NCBI GenBank assembly: GCA_903840265.1
Contig: CAIMFH010000201.1
Coordinates: 186,001-250,000 of the forward strand
DNA: 64,000 nucleotides
Reading direction: 5' to 3'
DNA from: an uncultured Schlesneria sp.
GTDB taxonomy: Bacteria > Planctomycetota > Planctomycetia > Planctomycetales > Planctomycetaceae
Part shown: one piece after another, positions 46,888 to 57,317 of the stretch
Position numbering within the stretch: the first letter of the stretch is position 1
How the letters are laid out: the number at the start of each line of letters is the position of its first letter
Translations under genes and position numbers: made by a program
Notes under the pieces: model-generated
Seen by the model: the letters and a program-made list of their open reading frames with translations, nothing else
Databases searched by the model: none
Told to the model about the DNA's origin: nothing

Positions 46888-47135
46888 TCTGAACCTCCCT
46901 CAACGTGGACAGAGAACCAAACCGTGGCTGCCGACGCTCGGCGCGCCTACCCCCCGCAGCAGCCCTATCCATACTCGTGTTGCGGAGGAATACTTTGAGA
47001 AGACTGGGAGAACTACTCCAAGTTTCCCTTTAACGAGGTTGCAGAATATCGGGGTAAATCTACTTGTCAAACGACTCGGGGAACTTTTCCTGACCTTGGG
47101 GACTAGTGAAAAAGCTCTCGGAGGGCAATTTTTGT

Positions 47136-48068
47136 ATGCATTCGCTTGACGTGATGCCTTGCGAAGCCTCCAAATTTGATTCCTGTATTACCCACTTCCA
47201 AACTGGAAAAGTCGAGATGGCTAGTTGCGATGATCAGAGAGTCTGGGAGTTTGGTGACTTTCGCTATGCTCCAAGGGAACGGCCCCTGCTGATGGGTATC
47301 GTCAATGTGACCCCCGATAGTTTTTCCGACGGGGGTCGATTTCTGCAATCTTCGGCCGCAGTTGAGCATGGGTTGCGACTTGCCGAAGAAGGGGCGGATA
47401 TTCTCGACGTGGGGGGCGAGTCGACGCGACCGGGCTCGGGCGGAATCTCCGTAGAAGAAGAACTGCAGCGAGTCGTCCCTGTCATCCGGCAGTTGGCCGA
47501 ACGGACCAAGATCCCGATCTCGGTCGACACCTCGAAAGCCGCTGTCGCTCGCGAGGCCCTGCAGGCCGGGGCCGTGATCGTCAATGACATCTCGGGCCTG
47601 CGATTTGACCCGCAGATGATTGATGTCTGCCGCGATTCGCAGTGCGGAGTCATCTGTATGCACATGCAGGGGACGCCGCAAACCATGCAGGCCGCGCCGC
47701 ACTATGAGGATGTCGTTGAGGAGATCTGCACCTTTTTCAAAGAGCGTCTGCAAACGTTGACGGCAGCCGGCATCGCGGCTGAACGAATCGCCTTCGATCC
47801 CGGAGTCGGTTTTGGTAAGACCGCTCAGCACAACGTTCAGATTCTGGCATCAATCCGTCAGTTCCAAGCTGTTGGCCGACCGATTTTGATCGGCCATTCG
47901 CGCAAAGGGTTCCTGAAGAAGGTGACGGGCAGAGAACTTGATGAACGATTATTCGGGACGATTGGCGTGTCCGTTGCGGTCGCACATCAGGGTGTTGATC
48001 TAATCCGAGTGCATGATGTGGCGGCCAATCTCGACGCGATCACTGCCTTCCTGGCGACATCAAAATAG
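47136..48068 (+). CDS. folP: Dihydropteroate synthase
   Basis: ATG 47136 follows GGAGGG at nine bases, giving 310 residues with about 45 extra residues before the domain. The enzyme joins para-aminobenzoate to the pterin pyrophosphate in folate synthesis. Motifs are MGIVNVTPDSFSDGG near residue 53, LDVGGESTRPGS near 88, SVDTSKAAVAREAL near 128, IVNDISGLRFD near 147, and GHSRKGFL near 265, all in the expected order. It is followed at 155 bp by the M16 peptidase genes. The N-terminal extension is unusual and has three cysteines (shown by MPCEASKFDSC). Confidence 0.95.
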   Translation: MHSLDVMPCEASKFDSCITHFQTGKVEMASCDDQRVWEFGDFRYAPRERPLLMGIVNVTPDSFSDGGRFLQSSAAVEHGLRLAEEGADILDVGGESTRPGSGGISVEEELQRVVPVIRQLAERTKIPISVDTSKAAVAREALQAGAVIVNDISGLRFDPQMIDVCRDSQCGVICMHMQGTPQTMQAAPHYEDVVEEICTFFKERLQTLTAAGIAAERIAFDPGVGFGKTAQHNVQILASIRQFQAVGRPILIGHSRKGFLKKVTGRELDERLFGTIGVSVAVAHQGVDLIRVHDVAANLDAITAFLATSK

Positions 48069-48224: not shown

Positions 48225-49454
48225 ATGTCTCAACACGTCGTCAAGCATGCGACCTTGTCTAATGGACTGACCGTCCTCGTCGAAACGATGCCCGCCGTAC
48301 AATCGGCGGCATTTTCTCTGCTGGTGAATGCCGGCAGCGTCTACGATCCACCACATCAAAACGGGACCACGACCGCGCTGGCCGACTGGACAGCTCGCGG
48401 TGCTGGAAACCTGAACAGCCGCCAGTTGCTCGCTGAACTGGATCGCCTGGGGATCCAAGGGAATGAGTCTGCGGGAACGCAGCACATGGTCTTTCGCGCG
48501 TCCTGCCTGGCCGCGAATCTGCCAGCAGCCCTGCGACTATACGGCGATATCGTGAGAAAGCCTCATCTTCCCGAAGAGGAATTCGAAGCGGTCCTATCGG
48601 GTGTCGAGCACGGCCTTCTGGCGATTGAGGACGAACCTCGACAAAAAGTCATGGTCGAACTGCTGCGTCGGTGTTACCCGCATCCCTGGGGTCAGCCCTC
48701 GGAAGGAACACTGGAAGATCTGCCGAATATCACACCCGAATCCGTGCGGAACCATTTCGAACGCTGTGTGAAACCAGACAAGGCGATTCTGGGTGTCGCG
48801 GGCAACGTCACGCTCGAAACGGTCTTGCCGGTTGTCGAGAGTGTCTTTGGTGATTGGACGGGATCGAATGATCAAACCGTCCCGACGGGCACCGTCTCTC
48901 CGGTGCGCGAGCACTTGGATCACGAGTCGACTCAAACACAAATCGGCGTCGCCTATCCCGGCGTCGCTTATGCTGATCCCGAATACTACGCCGCCTGGGC
49001 CGCTGTGAATGTGCTGAGCGGCGGGATGAGTTCGCGTCTGTTTACTGAGATCCGCGAAAAGCGTGGTCTGTGCTATTCAGTCTATGCGACGCTGAACACC
49101 CTGAAAGACCGCGGACAGGTTCTGTGTTATGCCGGGACCACATCGGAGCGAGCTCAGGAAACGCTGGACGTGTTGCGAGCGGAATTGGTGCGACTGGGCG
49201 AAGGGATCGGCCAGGATGAGCTCGATCGCTGCAAGGCTCGCGCAAAGAGCTCGCTGATTATGGCTCAGGAGTCGAGCGGGTCGCGGGCCTCATCGTTGGC
49301 TCGCAACTGGTATCACCTTGGTCGAGTGGTCACGCTCAACGAAGTTCGTTCGGAAATCGAAGCGTTAACCGTCCAGAAGGTTTTGGATTACGTGCACAAG
49401 CATCCCGCGCAAGATTTTTCGATTCTGACAATCGGACCCGCAGCGTTGAAATAG
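48225..49454 (+). CDS. M16 peptidase-like protein lacking the zinc motif (inactive subunit)
   Basis: The 409-residue protein has the M16 layout of two 200-residue halves. Where the active partner has HFLEH, this one reads NGTTTALADW, so no zinc ligands exist. The second half keeps the substrate-binding Arg/Tyr-type segment SSRLFTEIREKRGLCYSVYA near residue 275 (in part). This matches the M16B arrangement in which a zinc-less subunit pairs with an active one. The active gene follows after 63 bp. Confidence 0.88.
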   Translation: MSQHVVKHATLSNGLTVLVETMPAVQSAAFSLLVNAGSVYDPPHQNGTTTALADWTARGAGNLNSRQLLAELDRLGIQGNESAGTQHMVFRASCLAANLPAALRLYGDIVRKPHLPEEEFEAVLSGVEHGLLAIEDEPRQKVMVELLRRCYPHPWGQPSEGTLEDLPNITPESVRNHFERCVKPDKAILGVAGNVTLETVLPVVESVFGDWTGSNDQTVPTGTVSPVREHLDHESTQTQIGVAYPGVAYADPEYYAAWAAVNVLSGGMSSRLFTEIREKRGLCYSVYATLNTLKDRGQVLCYAGTTSERAQETLDVLRAELVRLGEGIGQDELDRCKARAKSSLIMAQESSGSRASSLARNWYHLGRVVTLNEVRSEIEALTVQKVLDYVHKHPAQDFSILTIGPAALK

Positions 49455-49517
49455 ATCCCCTGCTTCGAGCCCCCTTTCAGGGCACGAACAGAAGTTCCCT
49501 CATCGACAAAGAGTTCC

Positions 49518-50750
49518 ATGCAGTTCCATCACACTACGCTTCCGAACGGTCTTGAGGTCGTTGCTGAACTGAATAACGATGCCTACAGCGTTGCGTTCGG
49601 TTTCTACGTCAAAGCCGGTGCCCGCGACGAAAGCGGCGACGTGTCCGGAGTCAGCCATTTTCTGGAACATATGGCGTTCAAAGGGACCGAGCGGTTCTCG
49701 GCCGAAGACGTTAATCGGATCTTCGATGAATACGGGGCTGACTACAACGCGATGACCGGAGAAGAGAGCACCGTCTTCTACTCATCCGTCCTACCTGAGT
49801 ACTTGCCGCAAACATTCGAATTGCAAGCGAGCATCCTGTTTCCGACGCTGCGGCAAGATGACTTCGATATGGAGAAGAAGGTCATCCTCGAAGAAATCGG
49901 CATGTACGAGGATCAGCCTTCTTCAGTCGCGTACGACAAAGCGATGCAGTTGCACTTCAGCGGTCATGATCTTGGCCAATCGATCCTGGGAACGGTGGCC
50001 AGTGTTTCGGGCCTGACTTCAGAACAGATGCGAAGCTATCACCAGGATCACTATCGCGCGGGCAATATTGTGCTAGCGGTGGCCGGCAATACGGATTGGA
50101 AGACTGTTCTCGAACTCGCAGAGAAACATTGCGGCCACTGGCCTGCTGGAGTCAGCCCTCGAAGTACTGCTGCAGCAACGCATGCCGCTCAGACAGAGTT
50201 CGTGGTGAAAGACCAGTGCCAGCAAGAGCAGATCATTCAGTTGGCATCGGCTCCGTCTTGTACTGACCCACGGCGGTTCGCGGCCGAATTGCTGACCGTC
50301 ATTGTCGGTGACGACAGCAACAGCCGGCTCTATTGGGAACTGGTCGACCCGGGCCTGGTCGAATCTGCCGAATGCGGCTACTACGAATTTGAAGGAGCGG
50401 GCACGTACCTGACGTTCTTGAATGGGGATCCGGAAACAACTCGAGAGAATCTCGAAACGATCAATCGCCTGTATGAAGCTGTGAATGCCGAAGGGATCAC
50501 TGCTGACGAACTGGAACAGGCTAAAAACAAGATCGCAACGCGAATTGTTCTGCGCAGCGAACGCCCCATGGGGCGCCTGAGTTCACTCGGCGGCAACTGG
50601 CTGGTGCGTCGAGAATATCGCAGCGTGGAAGACGATCTGGCTACGGTTCGCGGTGTCACGCTGGAAGACATTCGGCAGTTGCTGAAAGAATTTCCGCTGA
50701 TGCAGACGACAACTGTCGGTGTCGGGCCGCTGGACAAGTTGCCAGCCTAA
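49518..50750 (+). CDS. M16 zinc metallopeptidase (active subunit)
   Basis: The 410-residue protein carries HFLEH at residues 47-51 and the third zinc ligand in LEEIGMY near 125-127, a 75-residue spacing that is normal for M16 (inverzincin) peptidases. The second half begins near residue 215 and holds SNSRLYWELVDPGLVESAECGYYEF-type sequence (in part) that forms the other half of the clamshell. Paired with the inactive gene just upstream it should degrade small peptides in the cytoplasm or periplasm; no signal peptide is seen. Its stop lies 11 bp from the convergent regulator gene. Confidence 0.93.
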   Translation: MQFHHTTLPNGLEVVAELNNDAYSVAFGFYVKAGARDESGDVSGVSHFLEHMAFKGTERFSAEDVNRIFDEYGADYNAMTGEESTVFYSSVLPEYLPQTFELQASILFPTLRQDDFDMEKKVILEEIGMYEDQPSSVAYDKAMQLHFSGHDLGQSILGTVASVSGLTSEQMRSYHQDHYRAGNIVLAVAGNTDWKTVLELAEKHCGHWPAGVSPRSTAAATHAAQTEFVVKDQCQQEQIIQLASAPSCTDPRRFAAELLTVIVGDDSNSRLYWELVDPGLVESAECGYYEFEGAGTYLTFLNGDPETTRENLETINRLYEAVNAEGITADELEQAKNKIATRIVLRSERPMGRLSSLGGNWLVRREYRSVEDDLATVRGVTLEDIRQLLKEFPLMQTTTVGVGPLDKLPA

Positions 50751-50761
50751 AGAGCTTGAGA

Positions 50762-51667
50762 TTACTTGCTTCGCTTCGGAGATTTTTTGCGGTTCGACAA
50801 CGACTTGGCCAGCTCTGTCGCGAACGAATCCAGGCTTTGCATGGAGTCGCAGTAGGCAGTGCAGGTCATTTTCGATCGCATCGCCTCGGTGAGAACCCGC
50901 CCTCCGATGAAGAGCGATGCACCGGCGTCCTGGCAGGCGTCAGATAGCTCGGCAAATTCTCGGACGAAGTCGATCGACGGCAGAATGTGAGAGACGCTTA
51001 GCCAGAATAATTTAGGCTTCGTCTCTCGAACCGCGCGACAGAGTGACGCAAATGGGAGCGAGGTTCCGAGCGATGTCGCATTCCAGCCCGATTCCCGCAG
51101 CACCAGTTCGGCCATCGTCGACGGCAGTGCATACACGTCACCTTCAATAGTCCCCCCGATCGCCAGTTTCGCTTTCGGGAGAACTCGCTGCTTTTGTCGC
51201 AGGTCAAACATGATGCGCACCGCGATCTCGCACCCGCGACGCTCCTGGTAGGTATCCGCCTCATGGCAAGCCCAGCGATCACCAATATCGCTGAACGCGC
51301 CGGCAATGACTTCATCGCAGATTATGCTCAGCGGATGCTTCGCGAGATAAAGATCGATAATTATTTGTCGGGCGAGTTCTTCATTTCCGCCCAACAGGGC
51401 GTCGACCAGGAGAGGCCGACCACGGGCTAGACCAAGCGGAGCCCCTGACGTGGTAGCGGGAAGGTTCAGGAGTTCCGGGGAGACCAGGTTTTGGTTCGTT
51501 TCGCGCACAAATCGCAGGACATCGCTGATCCGCATTTTGCGGTGACCACCAGCCGTCCGCACTGTTGCGATCAGCCCCTGGTCACACCACCGCTTTAGCG
51601 AGGATTCGCTGACACCGATCGCGCGAGCCACCTGCTTCGGTGAGACGAGATCGGATGAATGCTCCAT
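50762..51667 (-). CDS. MerR-type regulator with cobalamin-binding-like domain (CarH/LitR-like, ligand residues altered)
   Basis: From ATG 51667 (after AAGGGG) the protein has 301 residues. Residues 8-60 form a MerR/excisionase HTH (VSPKQVARAIGVSESSLKRW). Residues about 90-160 look like the helical cap and 165-280 like the Rossmann B12 domain of CarH/LitR regulators. Key positions differ: the cap has W132 and E142 but Arg143 where CarH has the EH histidine; Ala133 replaces the histidine next to the tryptophan; and the E/DxHxxG motif reads GDVYALP, so the lower-axial histidine is Tyr179. The gene is divergent from the lipid operon it probably controls. Either cobalamin binds without histidine or another signal is used. 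Confidence 0.85.
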   Translation of the reverse strand: MEHSSDLVSPKQVARAIGVSESSLKRWCDQGLIATVRTAGGHRKMRISDVLRFVRETNQNLVSPELLNLPATTSGAPLGLARGRPLLVDALLGGNEELARQIIIDLYLAKHPLSIICDEVIAGAFSDIGDRWACHEADTYQERRGCEIAVRIMFDLRQKQRVLPKAKLAIGGTIEGDVYALPSTMAELVLRESGWNATSLGTSLPFASLCRAVRETKPKLFWLSVSHILPSIDFVREFAELSDACQDAGASLFIGGRVLTEAMRSKMTCTAYCDSMQSLDSFATELAKSLSNRKKSPKRSK

Positions 51668-51840
51668 ATGCCCCTTGCCCTGCGATGCTGCCAAATTGGT
51701 TGCAGAACTGTAGTTATCGACGCAGTCTCGGTCAATTCGCTAAGTTTTTGACCAGCCTTCTGATACCGGCTCTTGAATCGATCGCTGGTGGTGACTACCA
51801 TCATGAACGATTTGAACGTTTTTTAAAAGAGGTAATCGTG
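51668..51840 (+). promoter_or_regulatory. Candidate control region of the lipid operon
   Basis: This 173-bp divergent gap contains TTGAAT at 51773-51778 and TACCAT at 51796-51801 with a 17-bp spacer, a possible sigma-70 promoter. An imperfect dyad (TGGTGGTGACTACCA, 51786-51800) overlaps the -10 side, and GAACGATTT/GAACGTTTT repeat at 51805-51822. The AGAGG box for the first operon gene lies at 51828-51832. All assignments are by eye. Confidence 0.4.
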
Positions 51841-53157
51841 ATGAAAGCGGCAATCATCGGTTCCGGGATTTCCGGCCTGACCGCCGCCTACCGCTTGCAC
51901 CAGCGTCATGAGGTCGTCGTTTTTGAAGCGGCCAGCTATGGGGGGGGGCACACGAATACCGTCGATGTGAACTTAGATGGCGAGCAACATTCGATCGATA
52001 CCGGGTTCATCGTCTTCAACGACTGGACCTACCCGAACTTTATTCAAATGCTGACCGAACTCGGAGTTGCCTCAAAACCGACTTCGATGAGCTTCAGTGT
52101 TCGTGATGATCGAGTGAACCTCGAATACAACGGTGAATCGCTGAATTCTCTGTTCGCTCAACGCCGCAATCTGCTGCGACCCCGCTTTTATCGAATGGTC
52201 GCTGACATTCTCCGGTTCAATAAGCATGCGGTCCGATTGGTCACTGGTGAGGATGCTGAAGCGACTGTCGGTGAATTTCTGGCACGTCATCGCTATTCGC
52301 AGGAATTCGCCGATCGTTATCTGCTGCCGATGGGTGCCGCGATCTGGTCCTGTCCGACCGGTACGTTCTCGCAGTTTCCAATTCGATTTGTGGTCGAATT
52401 CTATCGCAACCACGGATTGCTGAGCATCACCGATCGCCCAACCTGGCGAGTCATCGTTGGTGGTTCACGCAACTATGTCAGGCCCCTGACCCGCGGCTTT
52501 CGGAATCAGATTCGATTGAACACCCCTGTCAGTCGTGTCACTCGGTTCGCTGATCGAGTCGAAGTGCAGCCTTTGCATGGAGCCCCCGAAAAATTCGACC
52601 ACGTCATCTTTGCCTGCCATAGCGATCAGGCACTCAAGATTCTCGGCACTGACGCTTCGCCAATCGAGCGCGAGGTACTGCTCGCGTTTCCCTATGAGCG
52701 GAACATGGCCGTCCTGCACACTGACGCATCGGTGCTCCCAGAGCGAAAACGATGTTGGGCGAGTTGGAATTACCGCGTCCATCGCGAACAGCCGACCGCT
52801 GCGACAGTCACGTACAACATGAACATCCTGCAGGGGCTGCGGTCGCAGAAAACGTTTTGTGTGACCCTGAACGACGAACCCGCCATTGATCCAAAGACGA
52901 TTCTGCAGCGATTTGAATACCACCATCCCGTGTTCACAGCAAAGCGAGCCACCGCTCAAGCACGGCACGCGGACCTGATCAACGTCAATCGAACTTCGTA
53001 TTGCGGTGCTTATTGGGGAAATGGGTTTCACGAGGACGGCGTTGTCAGCGCCCTTGCCGTCGTGAAGTCGCTGGACCCGCAGGCACTCCCTGTTGCCTCG
53101 ACAAACGAGGTGCGGGTTTTAGCAGCCCGTCGGTCATCTGTGAGCCAGTTCACATAA
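51841..53157 (+). CDS. FAD-dependent amine-oxidase-like protein of the lipid operon
   Basis: ATG 51841 follows an AGAGG box and starts at once with the dinucleotide-binding motif (MKAAIIGSGISGLTAAYRL). The 438-residue protein has FAD-binding and amine-oxidase-like segments, including EAASYGGGHTNTVDV near residue 33, DTGFIVFNDWTYPNF near 57 and NRTSYCGAYWGNGFHEDGV near 380. Proteins of this group accompany CFA synthase and DUF1365 in many bacteria and are thought to act in acyl-chain or membrane-lipid modification, but the reaction is not established. It heads the operon opposite the CarH-like regulator. Confidence 0.87.
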   Translation: MKAAIIGSGISGLTAAYRLHQRHEVVVFEAASYGGGHTNTVDVNLDGEQHSIDTGFIVFNDWTYPNFIQMLTELGVASKPTSMSFSVRDDRVNLEYNGESLNSLFAQRRNLLRPRFYRMVADILRFNKHAVRLVTGEDAEATVGEFLARHRYSQEFADRYLLPMGAAIWSCPTGTFSQFPIRFVVEFYRNHGLLSITDRPTWRVIVGGSRNYVRPLTRGFRNQIRLNTPVSRVTRFADRVEVQPLHGAPEKFDHVIFACHSDQALKILGTDASPIEREVLLAFPYERNMAVLHTDASVLPERKRCWASWNYRVHREQPTAATVTYNMNILQGLRSQKTFCVTLNDEPAIDPKTILQRFEYHHPVFTAKRATAQARHADLINVNRTSYCGAYWGNGFHEDGVVSALAVVKSLDPQALPVASTNEVRVLAARRSSVSQFT

Positions 53158-53332
53158 CGGACTCGTCGCTTCGGCTAAAATCAACGAGAGGTGGACTGAT
53201 GCGGGCCTGGAAAGATAACACAATCGAAGGGAAAAGCAGCCGATTCGACTTTACAGGTCGTCACGGTTCCCCTGCGCACGACGCCTCGTCTGCATCACCA
53301 GTTCGGATGACCTGCTTAGAGGAATCCGTGCC

Positions 53333-54127
53333 ATGACCATGCAGAGTTGTCTCTACGAAGGCGAAGTCTTCCATCGTCGTTTAGTCCCGGTTCTGCACGA
53401 ATTCCGCTATCGGTTGTTTTTGCTTTACCTCGATCTTGATGAGTTGCCAACCGTCTTCAAAAGACGTTGGCTGTGGTCGGTGAATCATCCCAGTGTGGCC
53501 TGGTTCCGCCGCCGCGATCATCTCGGCCCGCCCGAACAGTCGCTGGCCGAGTCAGTTCGCGACATTGTTGAGTCGCAACTCGGCTGGAGACCGGCCGGTC
53601 CAATCCGACTGCTGACTCATCTGCGCTACTTTGGGTTTCTGATGAATCCAGTCAGCTTTTATTATTGCTTCGATGCGCAAGGTGATCGACTGGAAGCAAT
53701 CCTGGCCGATGTCAGCAACACTCCATGGAACGAGCGGCACTCCTATGTGCTCGATCTTCGCAATCAATCCGACGACGTTTTGCAGGCGGCATCAGTCAAG
53801 CAGTTTCATGTCTCGCCCTTCTTGGGAATGGATTTCGAATACCACTGGCGATTGAACAATCCCGGCAGCGAACTGAACCTGCAAATTGAGAATGAGCAGC
53901 ACGGCGACAGACCGTTCTCGGCCCGGATCGAACTGCAGCGGCAACCGATCACGACCTTCAATCTAACGCGGATGCTACTCCGTTACCCGCTGATGACCGC
54001 TCAAGTCTATTTCGGCATTTATTGGCAAGCCTGGCGGCTGTGGCGGAAGCGAGTTCCGTATGTGCCGCATCCAGGGAAAGTCGCCAGCTCGATCGATCTT
54101 TCAGACTATAAGGAAGTTTCCGTATGA
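53333..54127 (+). CDS. DUF1365 protein
   Basis: The 264-residue protein begins at ATG 53333 (GAGGA box upstream; a second ATG two codons later). It has the family's features: [22 protein letters not shown] at the start (part), [19 protein letters not shown] near residue 95, [14 protein letters not shown] near 128 and the [13 protein letters not shown] block near 160. DUF1365 genes sit beside FAD oxidoreductase and CFA synthase genes across bacteria. Its stop overlaps the start of the CFA synthase gene as ATGA. Its exact reaction is unknown; a lipid-related role follows from context. Confidence 0.9.
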
Positions 54128-55449
54128 CCATTGCGTCTGGTGACATCCCGCGACCGGGAAGGTTTGCGAGCCTCATGCGTTCGGTCGTGACGAGCCGTCT
54201 GCAGGGCCTGCAGCGCGGTCAAATTCGGCTGATCGATGGAGCCGGAGTCGTTCATCTGGGACAAGGCGACGACTTGGAGGTTGACCTCCAAGTTCACAAC
54301 CCGCGGTTCTATCGCGAAACGGTCATGGGCGGTGCGTTGTCGTTTGCAGAGTCCTATTTTCAAGGGGATTGGGACTGCGAAGATTTGACGACGCTGTTCC
54401 GGATCTTTGTTCGCAACCTGAATCAGGCCGACCAATTCGATGGCGGACTCGCAGGAGTCGTCGGCTTCGGTCAGCGGCTGTTTCACTGGTGGCGTTCCAA
54501 TAGTCGAACGGGAAGCCGGAAGAACATCGGAGCTCACTACGACTTGGGAAACGGTTTCTTCAAGTTGTGGCTCGACGAGACGATGGCCTATTCCAGCGGG
54601 ATCTTTCTGCATCCGGAAGGTTCGCTGCAAGAAGCCTCGGAAGAGAAGATTGACCGCGTCTGCCGCAAGTTGGCACTTCGCCCCCACGATCATCTGCTGG
54701 AGATCGGAACGGGTTGGGGTGCCCTGGCGATTCATGCGGCCAGCCACTACGGCTGCCGCGTCACGACAACGACGATCTCGCAAGAACAAGCCACTGTGGC
54801 GCGCGAGCGAATTCAGCAAGCGGGGTTGTCTGACCGAGTCACGCTGCTGACTTCTGATTATCGCGACCTGACAGGCCAGTTCGACAAGCTGGTCTCGATC
54901 GAGATGATCGAAGCCGTCGGTTTCAAGTACTTCGACACATACTTCCGTAAGATCGGCCAATTGCTTCGCCCCGAGGGAACCGCCGTCCTGCAGGCAATCG
55001 TGATGCCGGAGCGTCGCTACCAGGAATACCTGGGGGGCGTCGACTTCATTCAGCGATACATTTTCCCGGGAGGTTGTTTGCCATCGACTGCAACCATGCT
55101 GGAATCCGCGGGCCGAACGACGGATTTGCGGTTTGTTCACGCGGAAGACTTCGCGCCACACTACGCCGAAACGCTTCGCAGATGGCGGTATGCCTTCTGG
55201 ACGCAGATCGAGTCCGTTCGAGAACAGGGTTACTCGGAACGGTTCATTCGGCTGTGGAACTATTACCTCTGCTATTGCGAAGCGGTGTTCGAAGAACGGC
55301 ACGTTGGGGTAGTCCAAGTCCAGTTCGACAAGCCCCTTTGTCGCCGCGATCCCATCCAAATTAGCGACCATGCTGCGAATAGACGCCGCGCTGCCGTACG
55401 TACGGCCAGCGGAAAGATGGACACCTGCCGAGAGCAACTATCGACATGA
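54124..55449 (+). CDS. cfa: Cyclopropane-fatty-acyl-phospholipid synthase
   Basis: The 441-residue enzyme overlaps the previous stop. It has an N-terminal lipid-binding region, the phrase [28 protein letters not shown] near residue 140 (in part), the SAM-binding motif [16 protein letters not shown] near 195, then [17 protein letters not shown] near 258 with the family glutamate, and [12 protein letters not shown] near 313. It adds a methylene from S-adenosylmethionine to a double bond of phospholipid acyl chains. The stop overlaps the start of a second methyltransferase gene. The C-terminal tail after residue 405 is Arg-rich and unlike known CFA enzymes; its ends may be less conserved. Confidence 0.94.
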
Positions 55450-56528
55450 GCATTCTGCAGCTGGGTATATCGGCAGTCGAGCAGGGATTGGTCCCCGATT
55501 CCATCACACGTGCGGCGATGCGTCGACTCTGCAGCCAACGGCTGGAGGATCTAACCCGCGATCGACTTCAAGCGACTCGGGCCGCTCACCAGGCTTTTAT
55601 CGAATCAACTCGTACTGCCGCGGTGGCGCCAATGCCTGAAAAGGCAAATCAACAGCATTACGAATTACCTCCTGAGTTCTTCGCGAATGTGTTGGGGACA
55701 CATCGAAAATACAGTTGCTGCCTGTGGTCTGAAGGTGTTGCAACATTGGACGAAGCGGAGGAGGCTGCACTCGCGCAAACGTGCGAGCATGCCCAGCTTC
55801 AAGACGGACAGAACATTCTGGAACTCGGCTGCGGTTGGGGATCGCTGTCGTTGTGGATGGCGCGGCGTTACCCCCACAGCATGATCACGGCCGTCTCCAA
55901 TTCCACCCCGCAACGAAGTTACATTGAGGCTCAGGCGGCGGCTTCCGGAATCACAAATCTCCAAGTGATCACCGCGGATATGAACGAGTTTCATCCGCCA
56001 GGACTCGATTCGGCCGAAGACAAGTTCGACCGCGTCGTCTCGGTCGAAATGTTCGAACATATGCGCAACTACGAATTGCTACTGTCGAGGATCGCGTCCT
56101 GGCTGAAACCTAATGGCAAACTATTTGTGCATATCTTCTGCCATCGCCTGCTGGCGTATCCGTTCGAAACGGCGGGAGCGTCAAATTGGATGGGGCAGTA
56201 CTTTTTCACCGGCGGAATCATGCCGAGTGCCGATTTCTTCAGCCACTTCGATCGCGATCTGAAAGTCGTTTCGCAATCTCAGTGGGACGGCCGTCACTAT
56301 CAGAAAACCTCCGAAGCCTGGCTGGCACTTCTGGACAAGCGTCGCGCCATCATCCTGCCGATCCTGAAGGCGACTTATGGACCTGCGGAAGCACGACGCT
56401 GGTTTCATCGATGGCGAATGTTCTTCCTGGCAGTTGCCGAGCTATTCGGCTATGCGGAAGGTCAGGAATGGTATGTCTCGCACTATCTGCTGGAGCCAAC
56501 AGGCGCACCGGCAAGTTCTTCCAAGTAG
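55446..56528 (+). CDS. Second CFA-like SAM-dependent methyltransferase
   Basis: The 360-residue enzyme overlaps the CFA synthase stop by four bases. It keeps QHYELPPEFFANVLG-type phrases near residue 70, the SAM motif ILELGCGWGSLSLWMARR near 124, and SVEMFEHMRNYELLL near 200, and it differs from the first enzyme outside the fold. This variant belongs to the coclaurine N-methyltransferase-like group that accompanies CFA synthases in lipid-modification clusters, where a further methyl group on the acyl chain has been implicated for some members. The substrate here is inferred, not shown. Confidence 0.86.
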   Translation: MSILQLGISAVEQGLVPDSITRAAMRRLCSQRLEDLTRDRLQATRAAHQAFIESTRTAAVAPMPEKANQQHYELPPEFFANVLGTHRKYSCCLWSEGVATLDEAEEAALAQTCEHAQLQDGQNILELGCGWGSLSLWMARRYPHSMITAVSNSTPQRSYIEAQAAASGITNLQVITADMNEFHPPGLDSAEDKFDRVVSVEMFEHMRNYELLLSRIASWLKPNGKLFVHIFCHRLLAYPFETAGASNWMGQYFFTGGIMPSADFFSHFDRDLKVVSQSQWDGRHYQKTSEAWLALLDKRRAIILPILKATYGPAEARRWFHRWRMFFLAVAELFGYAEGQEWYVSHYLLEPTGAPASSSK

Positions 56529-56537
56529 ACCCTTTTG

Positions 56538-57317
56538 ATGTCTCCTCTCGCTCAGACTTTGCTCATTAGCTTCGGATGTCTCACCGGGATCATGGTGATC
56601 CTGTGGCTGTTAAGTCTGGCCCGTCATGACGCCAGTATCATTGACCCGTTCTGGGGGACTGGTTTCGTCATCATCGCGTGGTTGTCGTGTGGGTGGAATC
56701 ACGCGACGGATCCCCGATCGCTATTGCTTGCCGAGCTGACGACGGTGTGGGGATTGCGGCTGTCGCTGTATCTGCTCTGGCGAAACGCAAATCACGGTGA
56801 AGATCGTCGTTATGCCGCGATGCGGGCTCATCATGGAGCCAACTTCGCCTGGGTCAGCCTGTTCACGGTCTTCCTTCTGCAAGCCGTCATCTTGTGGTTC
56901 GTTGCGTTTCCTCTGCAAGCAGCATTGGCTTCTCAAAAGGCGGCCCCGCTGACAGCGATCGATGCCATTGGTGTCGCCATCTGGTCGTTAGGGTTCCTAT
57001 TTGAATCGATCGGCGACTGGCAAATGGCTCGCTTTCAAGCCAACACCGAGAACGCCGGCCGAGTTATGGATCGCGGGTTGTGGAGATACACACGCCATCC
57101 CAACTATTTTGGCGACTTCTGCGTTTGGTGGGGACTCTACCTGCTGGCCGCACCAGCCGGCGCCGCCTGGACAATCGGCAGCCCCATCATCATGTCACTG
57201 TTGTTAATGAAGGTCTCTGGAGTGACGTTGCTCGAAAGCACAATCACAGACCGCCGCCCGGACTATGCGGCGTACAAGGAACGTACCAGTTCGTTCTTTC
57301 CCTGGTTTCCGAGGTAA
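56538..57317 (+). CDS. DUF1295 (steroid 5-alpha-reductase-like) membrane protein
   Basis: The 259-residue protein starts at ATG 56538, ten bases after the previous stop. It has six or so helices and the C-terminal family core RYTRHPNYFGDFCVWWGLYL near residue 190, followed by SPIIMSLLLMKVSGVTLLE. An earlier phrase WGLRLSLYLLWRNANHGEDRRY near 75 (in part) is also typical. The family includes 5-alpha-reductases and isoprenylcysteine methyltransferase relatives. In this operon it likely reduces or modifies an unsaturated lipid intermediate made by the preceding enzymes. Confidence 0.9.
   Translation: MSPLAQTLLISFGCLTGIMVILWLLSLARHDASIIDPFWGTGFVIIAWLSCGWNHATDPRSLLLAELTTVWGLRLSLYLLWRNANHGEDRRYAAMRAHHGANFAWVSLFTVFLLQAVILWFVAFPLQAALASQKAAPLTAIDAIGVAIWSLGFLFESIGDWQMARFQANTENAGRVMDRGLWRYTRHPNYFGDFCVWWGLYLLAAPAGAAWTIGSPIIMSLLLMKVSGVTLLESTITDRRPDYAAYKERTSSFFPWFPR

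Follow-up and report, generated by a model that had tools for sequence, protein, structure and literature searches.

Positions 50762 to 57317 of the 64,000-nucleotide window analyzed here (G000:C201:186001-250000, from an uncultured Schlesneria sp. whose genome assembly comprises 7.49 Mb in 204 contigs) hold the gene of a CarH/LitR-like regulator and, diverging from it, an operon of five genes. The regulator gene lies on the minus strand at 50762..51667, within an open reading frame (ORF) at 50762..51694; translation from the ATG at 51667 gives a protein of 301 amino acids, and residues are numbered from this ATG, as they were in an earlier sequence-only reading of the same DNA. As far as can be read from its sequence, the regulator behaves like a CarH-type repressor of defenses against light damage. 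We consider it probable, with some reserve, that it is a CarH-like protein repressing a photo-oxidative-stress regulon, and that its use of adenosylcobalamin (AdoCbl), if any, is no longer that of CarH.

The operon and its divergent regulator

The operon runs on the plus strand and begins with a gene for a flavin adenine dinucleotide (FAD) oxidoreductase (51841..53157; Pfam Amino_oxidase/NAD_binding_8) resembling the fatty-acyl desaturase UfaD. It continues with a DUF1365 protein (53333..54127; 281.5 bits) of the UfaO family, to which O2-dependent formation of the furan ring is ascribed, and with a cyclopropane-synthase-type S-adenosylmethionine methyltransferase of the UfaM/CfaS kind (54124..55449; Pfam CMAS, 283.3 bits). 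A second, diverged CMAS-type methyltransferase, UfaM- or FufM-like (55446..56528; 129.9 bits), and a DUF1295 protein (56535..57317; 256.2 bits) complete the set. The names UfaD, UfaO, and UfaM are used at the family level and come from the Pfam families together with descriptions in PMC7380195, which, like the other papers cited below, is drawn on as excerpts. The combination of a desaturase-like FAD protein, a DUF1365 protein, and a CMAS-type methylase is that of a furan-fatty-acid operon, and all three were recognized by Pfam family. The furan fatty acid 9M5-FuFA is described as vanishing upon exposure to singlet oxygen and as protecting cells (PMC7380195).

The successive junctions along the operon are a 175 bp gap, two 4 bp overlaps, and a 6 bp gap. 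The sequence-only reading had called three of the four tight, and had placed a regulator with a MerR helix-turn-helix and a B12 domain divergent from FAD, DUF1365, two cyclopropane-fatty-acid-type, and DUF1295 genes; the ORF coordinates and Pfam agree with it on both counts. Its interpretation is supported in part. The proposal that the layout is that of a membrane lipid pathway induced by light or oxidative stress is borne out, by gene families matching those of furan-fatty-acid synthesis and by a likely operator, described below, that would link the operon, the regulator, and fasciclin genes. The divergent arrangement goes beyond chance, recurring in the three nearest named relatives (L221-L223; 64-67% identity). 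Judged by the regulator protein, the closest relatives among the best 80 of 410 loci are two Schlesneria bins and one planctomycete bin. In the family at large, an FAD gene of the operon type lies inside the fetched region at 28 of 80 loci and is divergent in 21.

In planctomycetes the DUF1295 gene accompanies the operon, and it also lies close to DUF1365 in a plasmid copy from Rhizobium standing behind RpoE-ChrR. On other plasmids, the furan pathway occurs with RpoE-ChrR (Pseudoalteromonas) or with a photolyase and a MerR regulator (Aeromonas, P0001); the Aeromonas regulator was compared with ours and rejected as the same protein, as it is not of the window type.

A CarH fold with replaced cobalamin ligands

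Pfam and an AlphaFold model divide the regulator into a winged-helix DNA-binding domain, a four-helix bundle, and a Rossmann domain. HTH_17, MerR, and MerR_1 pass the Pfam cut-off; the two cobalamin families, B12-binding (24.0 bits, cut-off 32.1) and B12-binding_2 (22.0 bits, cut-off 23), fall below theirs. The model, built from 44 of 63 alignment rows after removal of L228 (a stretch with a stop codon) and 18 others, has a mean predicted local distance difference test score (pLDDT) of 91.9 and a predicted template modeling score of 0.87. When it was searched against the PDB with Foldseek, CtMerR from Chloracidobacterium thermophilum (8JBS) came first (TMt 0.82), photocobilins next, and then full-length TtCarH. 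The predicted architecture is that of CarH, with the MerR-type DNA-binding domain, four-helix bundle, and Rossmann B12 domain by which CarH is recognized (PMC8156234, PMC9304148).

CtMerR is also the closest solved protein by sequence, with E = 1.2e-22 for the single sequence and 3.5e-43 (151.2 bits) for a family profile; Thermus CarH (5c8d) is a weak match of that profile (E = 0.0012). The residues that we follow from the alignments are W132, A133, C134, E142, R143, C146, D177-x-Y179-x2-P182, S224, G255-G256, and C273. W132 falls on W156 of CtMerR, E142-R143 on E166-H167, and Y179 on the cobalt-binding H204, the residue roles in CtMerR being those given in PMC11796333. Relative to CarH, A133, R143, and Y179 stand where H132, H142, and H177 are found. 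The ligand positions listed by the sequence-only reading (W132, E142, R143, Y179, and A133) are borne out by this alignment. The checks that it had proposed point the same way: neither the single-sequence nor the profile alignment with CtMerR brings another histidine to the lower-axial position, and structure prediction returned the whole CarH fold. A misaligned histidine was rejected as an explanation, as pairwise and profile alignments both give tyrosine. Its reading of A133 was correct, but the diagnostic value of that residue is weak, because the light-state ligand position is described as varying (Arg, Gln, Tyr) among proven B12 photoreceptors (PMC11796333).

The motifs by which CarH is defined read differently in this protein. 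In place of Wx9EH, the regulator has W132-x9-E142-R143. The B12 motif with the lower-axial histidine, D/ExHx2G/P-x41-SxT/V-x22-27-GG (PMC9304148), appears as D177-V-Y179-A-L-P182-x41-S224-V-S226-x28-GG, a register kept apart from the exchange of His for Tyr and of T/V for Ser and the presence of 28 rather than 22-27 residues before GG. The signature of light-responsive cobalamin-binding domains defined with SignatureFinder (PMC11796333) is incomplete in the regulator, where GxxW and GxxxP are present, EH has become ER, and GxxH has become GxxY. The NCBIfam model TransRegCarH (NF052513), with a cut-off of 400 bits, gave 31.7 bits. Because the two CarH-defining motifs tested are absent, the regulator should not, on its sequence, be filed as CarH. 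PHROGs yielded weak matches only, to the DNA-binding part, and searching plasmids for the regulator brought up a single weak match, in Rhizobium. We also rejected the idea that the same genome encodes another such protein, as a search at E <= 1 gave only two marginal matches besides the regulator itself.

Matches to the regulator at E <= 0.001 were found in 85 of 120 genomes of the family, and residues were counted in 82 regulator ORFs from 80 loci, one ORF being a fragment. At position 179, 76 of these ORFs have Tyr, 4 Asp, and 1 Cys, with 1 gap; at position 143, 75 have Arg and 6 His, again with 1 gap. W132 and E142 are each present in 77 and G256 in 81. Cysteines stand at 134 in 64 of the 82, at 146 in 72, and at 273 in 66. 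For R143 and C146 these family counts are fairer than those from the 80 named loci, which comprise the best 80 of 410 and came from scan patterns that included YQER..CE, so that both residues are counted too high there. The replaced ligands are real and lineage-wide, and a mutation private to one genome was rejected on that ground. With the upper-face Trp132 and Glu142 and the tail-tunnel motif retained, the cobalamin pocket looks rebuilt rather than abandoned.

In the phylum as a whole, a match to the regulator at E <= 0.001, in many cases weak, is present in 252 of 392 genomes. Among 61 ORFs from 60 further loci of the phylum, chosen from these matches, position 179 is Tyr in 44 and His in 8, position 143 is His in 49, and cysteine is rare at 134, 146, and 273 (3, 6, and 11 of 61, respectively). 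A tree was made from 95 of 143 rows (every third family row, chosen extras, and all 61 phylum rows) with the trait columns removed and the fragment L102_4 left out; as it was built by a quick procedure, has long branches, and drew warnings, we rely on its large groups only. It placed 88 of the 95 rows in one planctomycete branch with a support of 99 (Tyr 74, His 3, other 11). Within this branch, the group of the window comprises 39 rows (support 95), 38 of them with Tyr and nearly all with Arg143. Its sister branch of 47 rows mostly keeps EH and has Tyr in 34, His in 3, and another residue in 10; two further rows inside the planctomycete branch also combine EH with Tyr. The simplest reading would be that Tyr179 arose first and Arg143 later, a direction that the tree alone leaves unfixed.

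Members of the sister branch occur in other planctomycete families (e.g. L166-L197 among L158-L217), where Trp and EH are kept, the lower-axial position is mostly Tyr and sometimes His, Ser, Thr, Gly, or Phe, and the repeat described below is again present upstream of the gene. Tandem regulator copies were seen at L094 and L102, the second copy at L102 being cut by the contig end; the second copy at L094 is without the key residues, with Asp at 179 and Asp-Arg at 142-143.

A direct repeat and its candidate targets

The intergenic region between the regulator and the FAD gene contains a likely operator on the plus strand at 51804..51818, the direct repeat TGAACG-ATT-TGAACG with a period of 9 bp, followed by TTTT; it is the sole exact match to this core in the window. 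Just before it lies a predicted sigma-70-like promoter of the operon (51773..51801, plus strand), read by eye as TTGAAT (51773-51778), a 17 bp spacer, and TACCAT (51796-51801). With 8 of 12 consensus matches, this promoter is below the threshold of our consensus scan and so is unlisted there. The operator begins 2 bp past the TACCAT -10 element and ends 22 bp ahead of the ATG of the FAD gene. For the regulator, the consensus scan predicted a promoter, TTGACC-N17-TACAGT, on the minus strand at 51707..51735; a weak operator-like repeat with three mismatches (51729-51743, minus strand), not significant by itself, overlaps its -35 element.

The same repeat recurs upstream of related regulators. 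In 119 distinct loci we counted 52 TGAACG pairs of the TGAACG-N3-TGAACG spacing, 9 bp, on one strand, compared with about 0.02 per spacing in mononucleotide shuffles; the pairs occur at 41 of the 119 loci, where another copy often follows or precedes at a distance of 57-58 bp. In the sister branch, 28 of 41 upstream regions contain CGTTCA (5.6 expected), and 9 is again the commonest repeat spacing. A strict form of the operator pattern gave 55 sites in 38 of the 120 family genomes, the reversed pattern 3 sites in 2. Of the 75 genomes in which the regulator match is strong, 33 have the strict site, as do 5 of the 45 without such a match (Fisher p = 2e-4, uncorrected for kinship). In the five, G007, G057, G061, G112, and G113, most of the sites lie ahead of genes for fasciclin or sigma factors; these genomes may have a regulator that has diverged or been lost, or may be incompletely assembled.

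Where a promoter is visible, it tends to precede the repeat closely. At 22 of 125 distinct sites a TAnnnT hexamer ends 3-5 bp upstream, whereas other 3-bp windows average 3.7. Of the 25 sites having TAnnnT at 2-6 bp, 16 also show, at a spacer of 16 or 17, a hexamer resembling a -35 element (4 of 6 matches). This family-wide position supports the placement of the predicted operon promoter just before the operator. Because the repeat tends to cover the transcription start where a promoter is visible, its location points to regulation by repression.

Three sites in the source genome match the 19-mer operator within three mismatches, namely the operon site (no mismatch) and two others with two mismatches each. 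The latter precede, in the right direction, both fasciclin genes that Pfam finds in the genome, about 120 and about 50 bp from start codons read by eye. A looser 17-base pattern had a second match in this genome, inside an apparent reading frame, which was set aside by eye as chance. At the 125 distinct sites, a tally biased toward regulator neighbors and not an unbiased sample (83 sites belong to loci retrieved on account of the regulator, the other 42 to loci retrieved on account of a strict site), the longest downstream frame encodes a sigma-70-type factor in 51 cases, a fasciclin protein in 37, the FAD protein in 9, FolE in 4, a propeller of the pyrroloquinoline quinone (PQQ) type in 3, and the regulator in 1; 18 frames are unlabeled and 2 sites have no frame, which leaves 105 labeled. 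Among 40 sites in regions fetched away from regulator promoters, 23 are followed by fasciclin genes and 7 by sigma factor genes.

The neighborhoods of the regulators also include photolyase, ferrochelatase, FolE, and an SRPBCC protein. Labels were checked in Pfam on one or two members each for the sigma factor, fasciclin, FolE, SRPBCC, one photolyase group, ferrochelatase, PQQ propeller, and SDR; a second photolyase group was below the Pfam cut-off or unmatched and is named by eye, and a group first labeled DoxX matches AhpC-TSA. The sigma-70-type factor (regions 2 and 4), the commonest gene after the repeat, is in the fetched region at 33 of 80 family loci (31 when frames above 450 amino acids are left out) and is often divergent from the regulator (e.g. 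L044, L056, L071, L083). Ferrochelatase was seen near the regulator at 7 of 80 family loci (L071, L083, L084, L099, L100, L106, and L107; Pfam was run on L084), which would fit a link to photosensitizing porphyrins.

A proposed mechanism and its alternatives

We propose that a CarH/LitR-like repressor of a planctomycete lineage gave up the CarH mode of holding AdoCbl. An oligomer of the regulator most likely binds the direct repeat (51804-51818) that covers the point at which transcription of the operon is predicted to begin, and would also occupy the comparable site ahead of either fasciclin gene. Photo-oxidative stress (light or singlet oxygen) would release it and so end the presumed repression, upon which furan fatty acids, as singlet-oxygen scavengers, and fasciclin proteins would be made. 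In many relatives the operator lies before an alternative sigma factor, so that other defense genes are probably controlled by relay. The signal is most likely something other than the photolysis of His-ligated AdoCbl, because the lower-axial histidine has become Tyr, His142 has become Arg, and conserved cysteines have appeared at 134, 146, and 273. Our favored guess is that the rebuilt pocket responds to a redox signal, a tetrapyrrole, or a partner protein.

The regulator shares with CarH, the AdoCbl photoreceptor-repressor of Thermus, Myxococcus, and Bacillus, its domain order, predicted fold, and adjoining photoprotective pathway, and the predicted operator is, like those described for CarH, a tandem direct repeat near the promoter (PMC9304148). 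It differs from CarH in having no histidine at the lower-axial and His142 positions and in the period of the repeat, 9 bp with TGAACG versus 11 bp with nnnnTnnACAn (PMC9304148). Its candidate targets, too, are different, being lipid, fasciclin, and sigma genes, with no search made that was aimed at carotenoid genes. CtMerR (8JBS/8JBT), closest in both sequence and fold, likewise has GxxW and GxxxP, but it has EH and His204 and is described as binding AdoCbl (PMC11796333), where the window protein has ER, Tyr, and extra conserved cysteines. CarA of Myxococcus xanthus, a CarH paralogue countered by CarS (PMC8156234), is a precedent for B12-independent photo-oxidative regulation (PMC8156234, PMC9304148). 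CarA keeps the His of the B12 motif and EH and is without the Trp and flanking residues (PMC9304148), whereas the window protein keeps Trp and Glu and has both histidines replaced.

The class II LitR proteins PplR and PmlR of Pseudomonas are also B12-independent, with a regulon containing photolyase, UfaM, and FolE and a short LOV protein as partner (PMC9758184). Pfam recognizes only a four-helix bundle in their C-terminal part (PMC9758184); the Rossmann domain of the window regulator is weak in Pfam and modeled with high confidence. Their operator, TGTACA-N12-TGTACA, differs from TGAACG-N3-TGAACG. By the descriptions in these excerpts, neither CarA nor class II LitR has the residue pattern of the window regulator. 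The RpoE-ChrR regulon of Rhodobacter is a further point of comparison, with ufaD/ufaO, ufaM (as cfaS), photolyase, fasciclin, folE2, SDR, and a second sigma factor among its targets (PMC7074977). By analogy, the window-type target set resembles this singlet-oxygen regulon and, in part, the light regulon of class II LitR in Pseudomonas; the control differs, being exerted by an anti-sigma factor in Rhodobacter and here apparently by a CarH-like repressor. ChrR control of the present genes was rejected, as no ChrR match exceeded the cut-off in the 120 family genomes and none is listed for the genome of the window.

Several observations weigh against the reading that we favor. W132 and E142 are retained, and the B12 motif preserves its spacing (with the Pro position free to vary) in 76 of 80 named relatives as well as in 69 of 82 family ORFs, which would fit continued binding of a cobalamin-like ligand. 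The count of family genomes with CarH over the NF052513 cut-off, 0 of 120, carries little information, as 0 of 14 control genomes passed too. The repeat is linked to the regulator by position and co-occurrence alone, and 42 of the 75 genomes with a strong regulator match are without the strict site. In the source genome, the reversed control pattern gave two matches against the three of the operator, so what counts is which three sites these are rather than how many. Besides the bias of the target tally, the strict site lies within 300 bp upstream of only 6 of 48 FAD genes near a regulator, and at loci whose target is the sigma factor, the operon may be controlled indirectly or not at all. Weak partial ChrR-like stretches below the cut-off occur in 51 of the 120 family genomes.

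That the regulator carries no cofactor and that a separate photoreceptor or anti-repressor lifts repression, in the manner of CarS with CarA in Myxococcus and of SB-LOV with class II LitR in Pseudomonas, is a serious rival, if on the unlikely side. CarA and class II LitR are B12-independent CarH relatives that control light genes (PMC8156234, PMC9304148, PMC9758184), and the source genome encodes four LOV-type sensor frames with an NCRFLQ-type motif (L380-L383). These frames, however, lie on contigs other than that of the regulator, and three of them, at 533, 826, and 970 amino acids, are long; no small conserved partner stood out among the neighbor clusters of frames of at least 80 amino acids, and a partner alone does not explain the conserved Tyr and Cys. 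The Tyr branch might instead have turned the CarH scaffold into a sensor of a new class, one whose tunnel holds another tetrapyrrole or a Tyr-ligated cobalamin, with Cys134 and Cys146 near in sequence, and which reads light or singlet oxygen directly; we hold this to be doubtful. Somewhat less probable still is a regulator that remains a cobalamin photoreceptor, with light-cleaved AdoCbl in the kept tunnel and either Tyr179 below the cobalt or a base-off form without a protein ligand. GxxW, GxxxP, E142, D177, S224, GG, and the exact x41 spacing speak for it, as do the sister branch, which keeps the EH of Wx9EH while being mostly Tyr, and the variation of the residue following Trp among proven photoreceptors (PMC11796333). 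Yet the counterparts of His177 and His142 are both replaced in nearly all of the branch of the window, the B12-binding Pfam models stay below cut-off, and a protein with Arg at the His177 position is described as having limited space for AdoCbl (PMC11796333).

Decay is a very improbable account. A degenerate CarH whose sensor domain only dimerizes, leaving a constitutive or growth-phase repressor, would agree with copies that look decayed, such as the second tandem copy at L094, but the strong conservation of Tyr179, Glu142, Arg143, Cys146, and Gly255-256 across diverse species is unlike decay. We also think it quite unlikely that the repeat belongs to another regulator sharing these loci by chance. 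In its favor are the 5 of 38 strict-site genomes without a strong regulator match and the regulator genomes without a strict site; against it, sites cluster upstream of regulators, the repeat found there is the same in both family branches, and TGAACG resembles the CarH half-site TnnACA (PMC9304148).

The favored reading, a CarH-like repressor no longer dependent on the CarH mode of AdoCbl binding, offers a defined regulator, a candidate DNA site, and a short list of targets for photo-oxidative defense in planctomycetes. If true, it would place a singlet-oxygen gene set under unrelated controllers in different phyla, and would mean that a B12 photoreceptor scaffold can be retooled by replacing two histidines. 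Should the Tyr branch prove to be a new sensor class, it would be a planctomycete counterpart of RpoE-ChrR, with the same kinds of defense genes under a different machine. A full-text literature search, which covered few subscription papers, returned none joining CarH with planctomycetes and none joining furan fatty acids with planctomycetes.

On the other side of the regulator, and not obviously members of the system, lie a dihydropteroate-synthase-like ORF at 47106-48068, recognized by eye, and two ORFs at 48225-50750 that adjoin the regulator gene, the second of which (49518-50750) encodes an M16 peptidase by Pfam.

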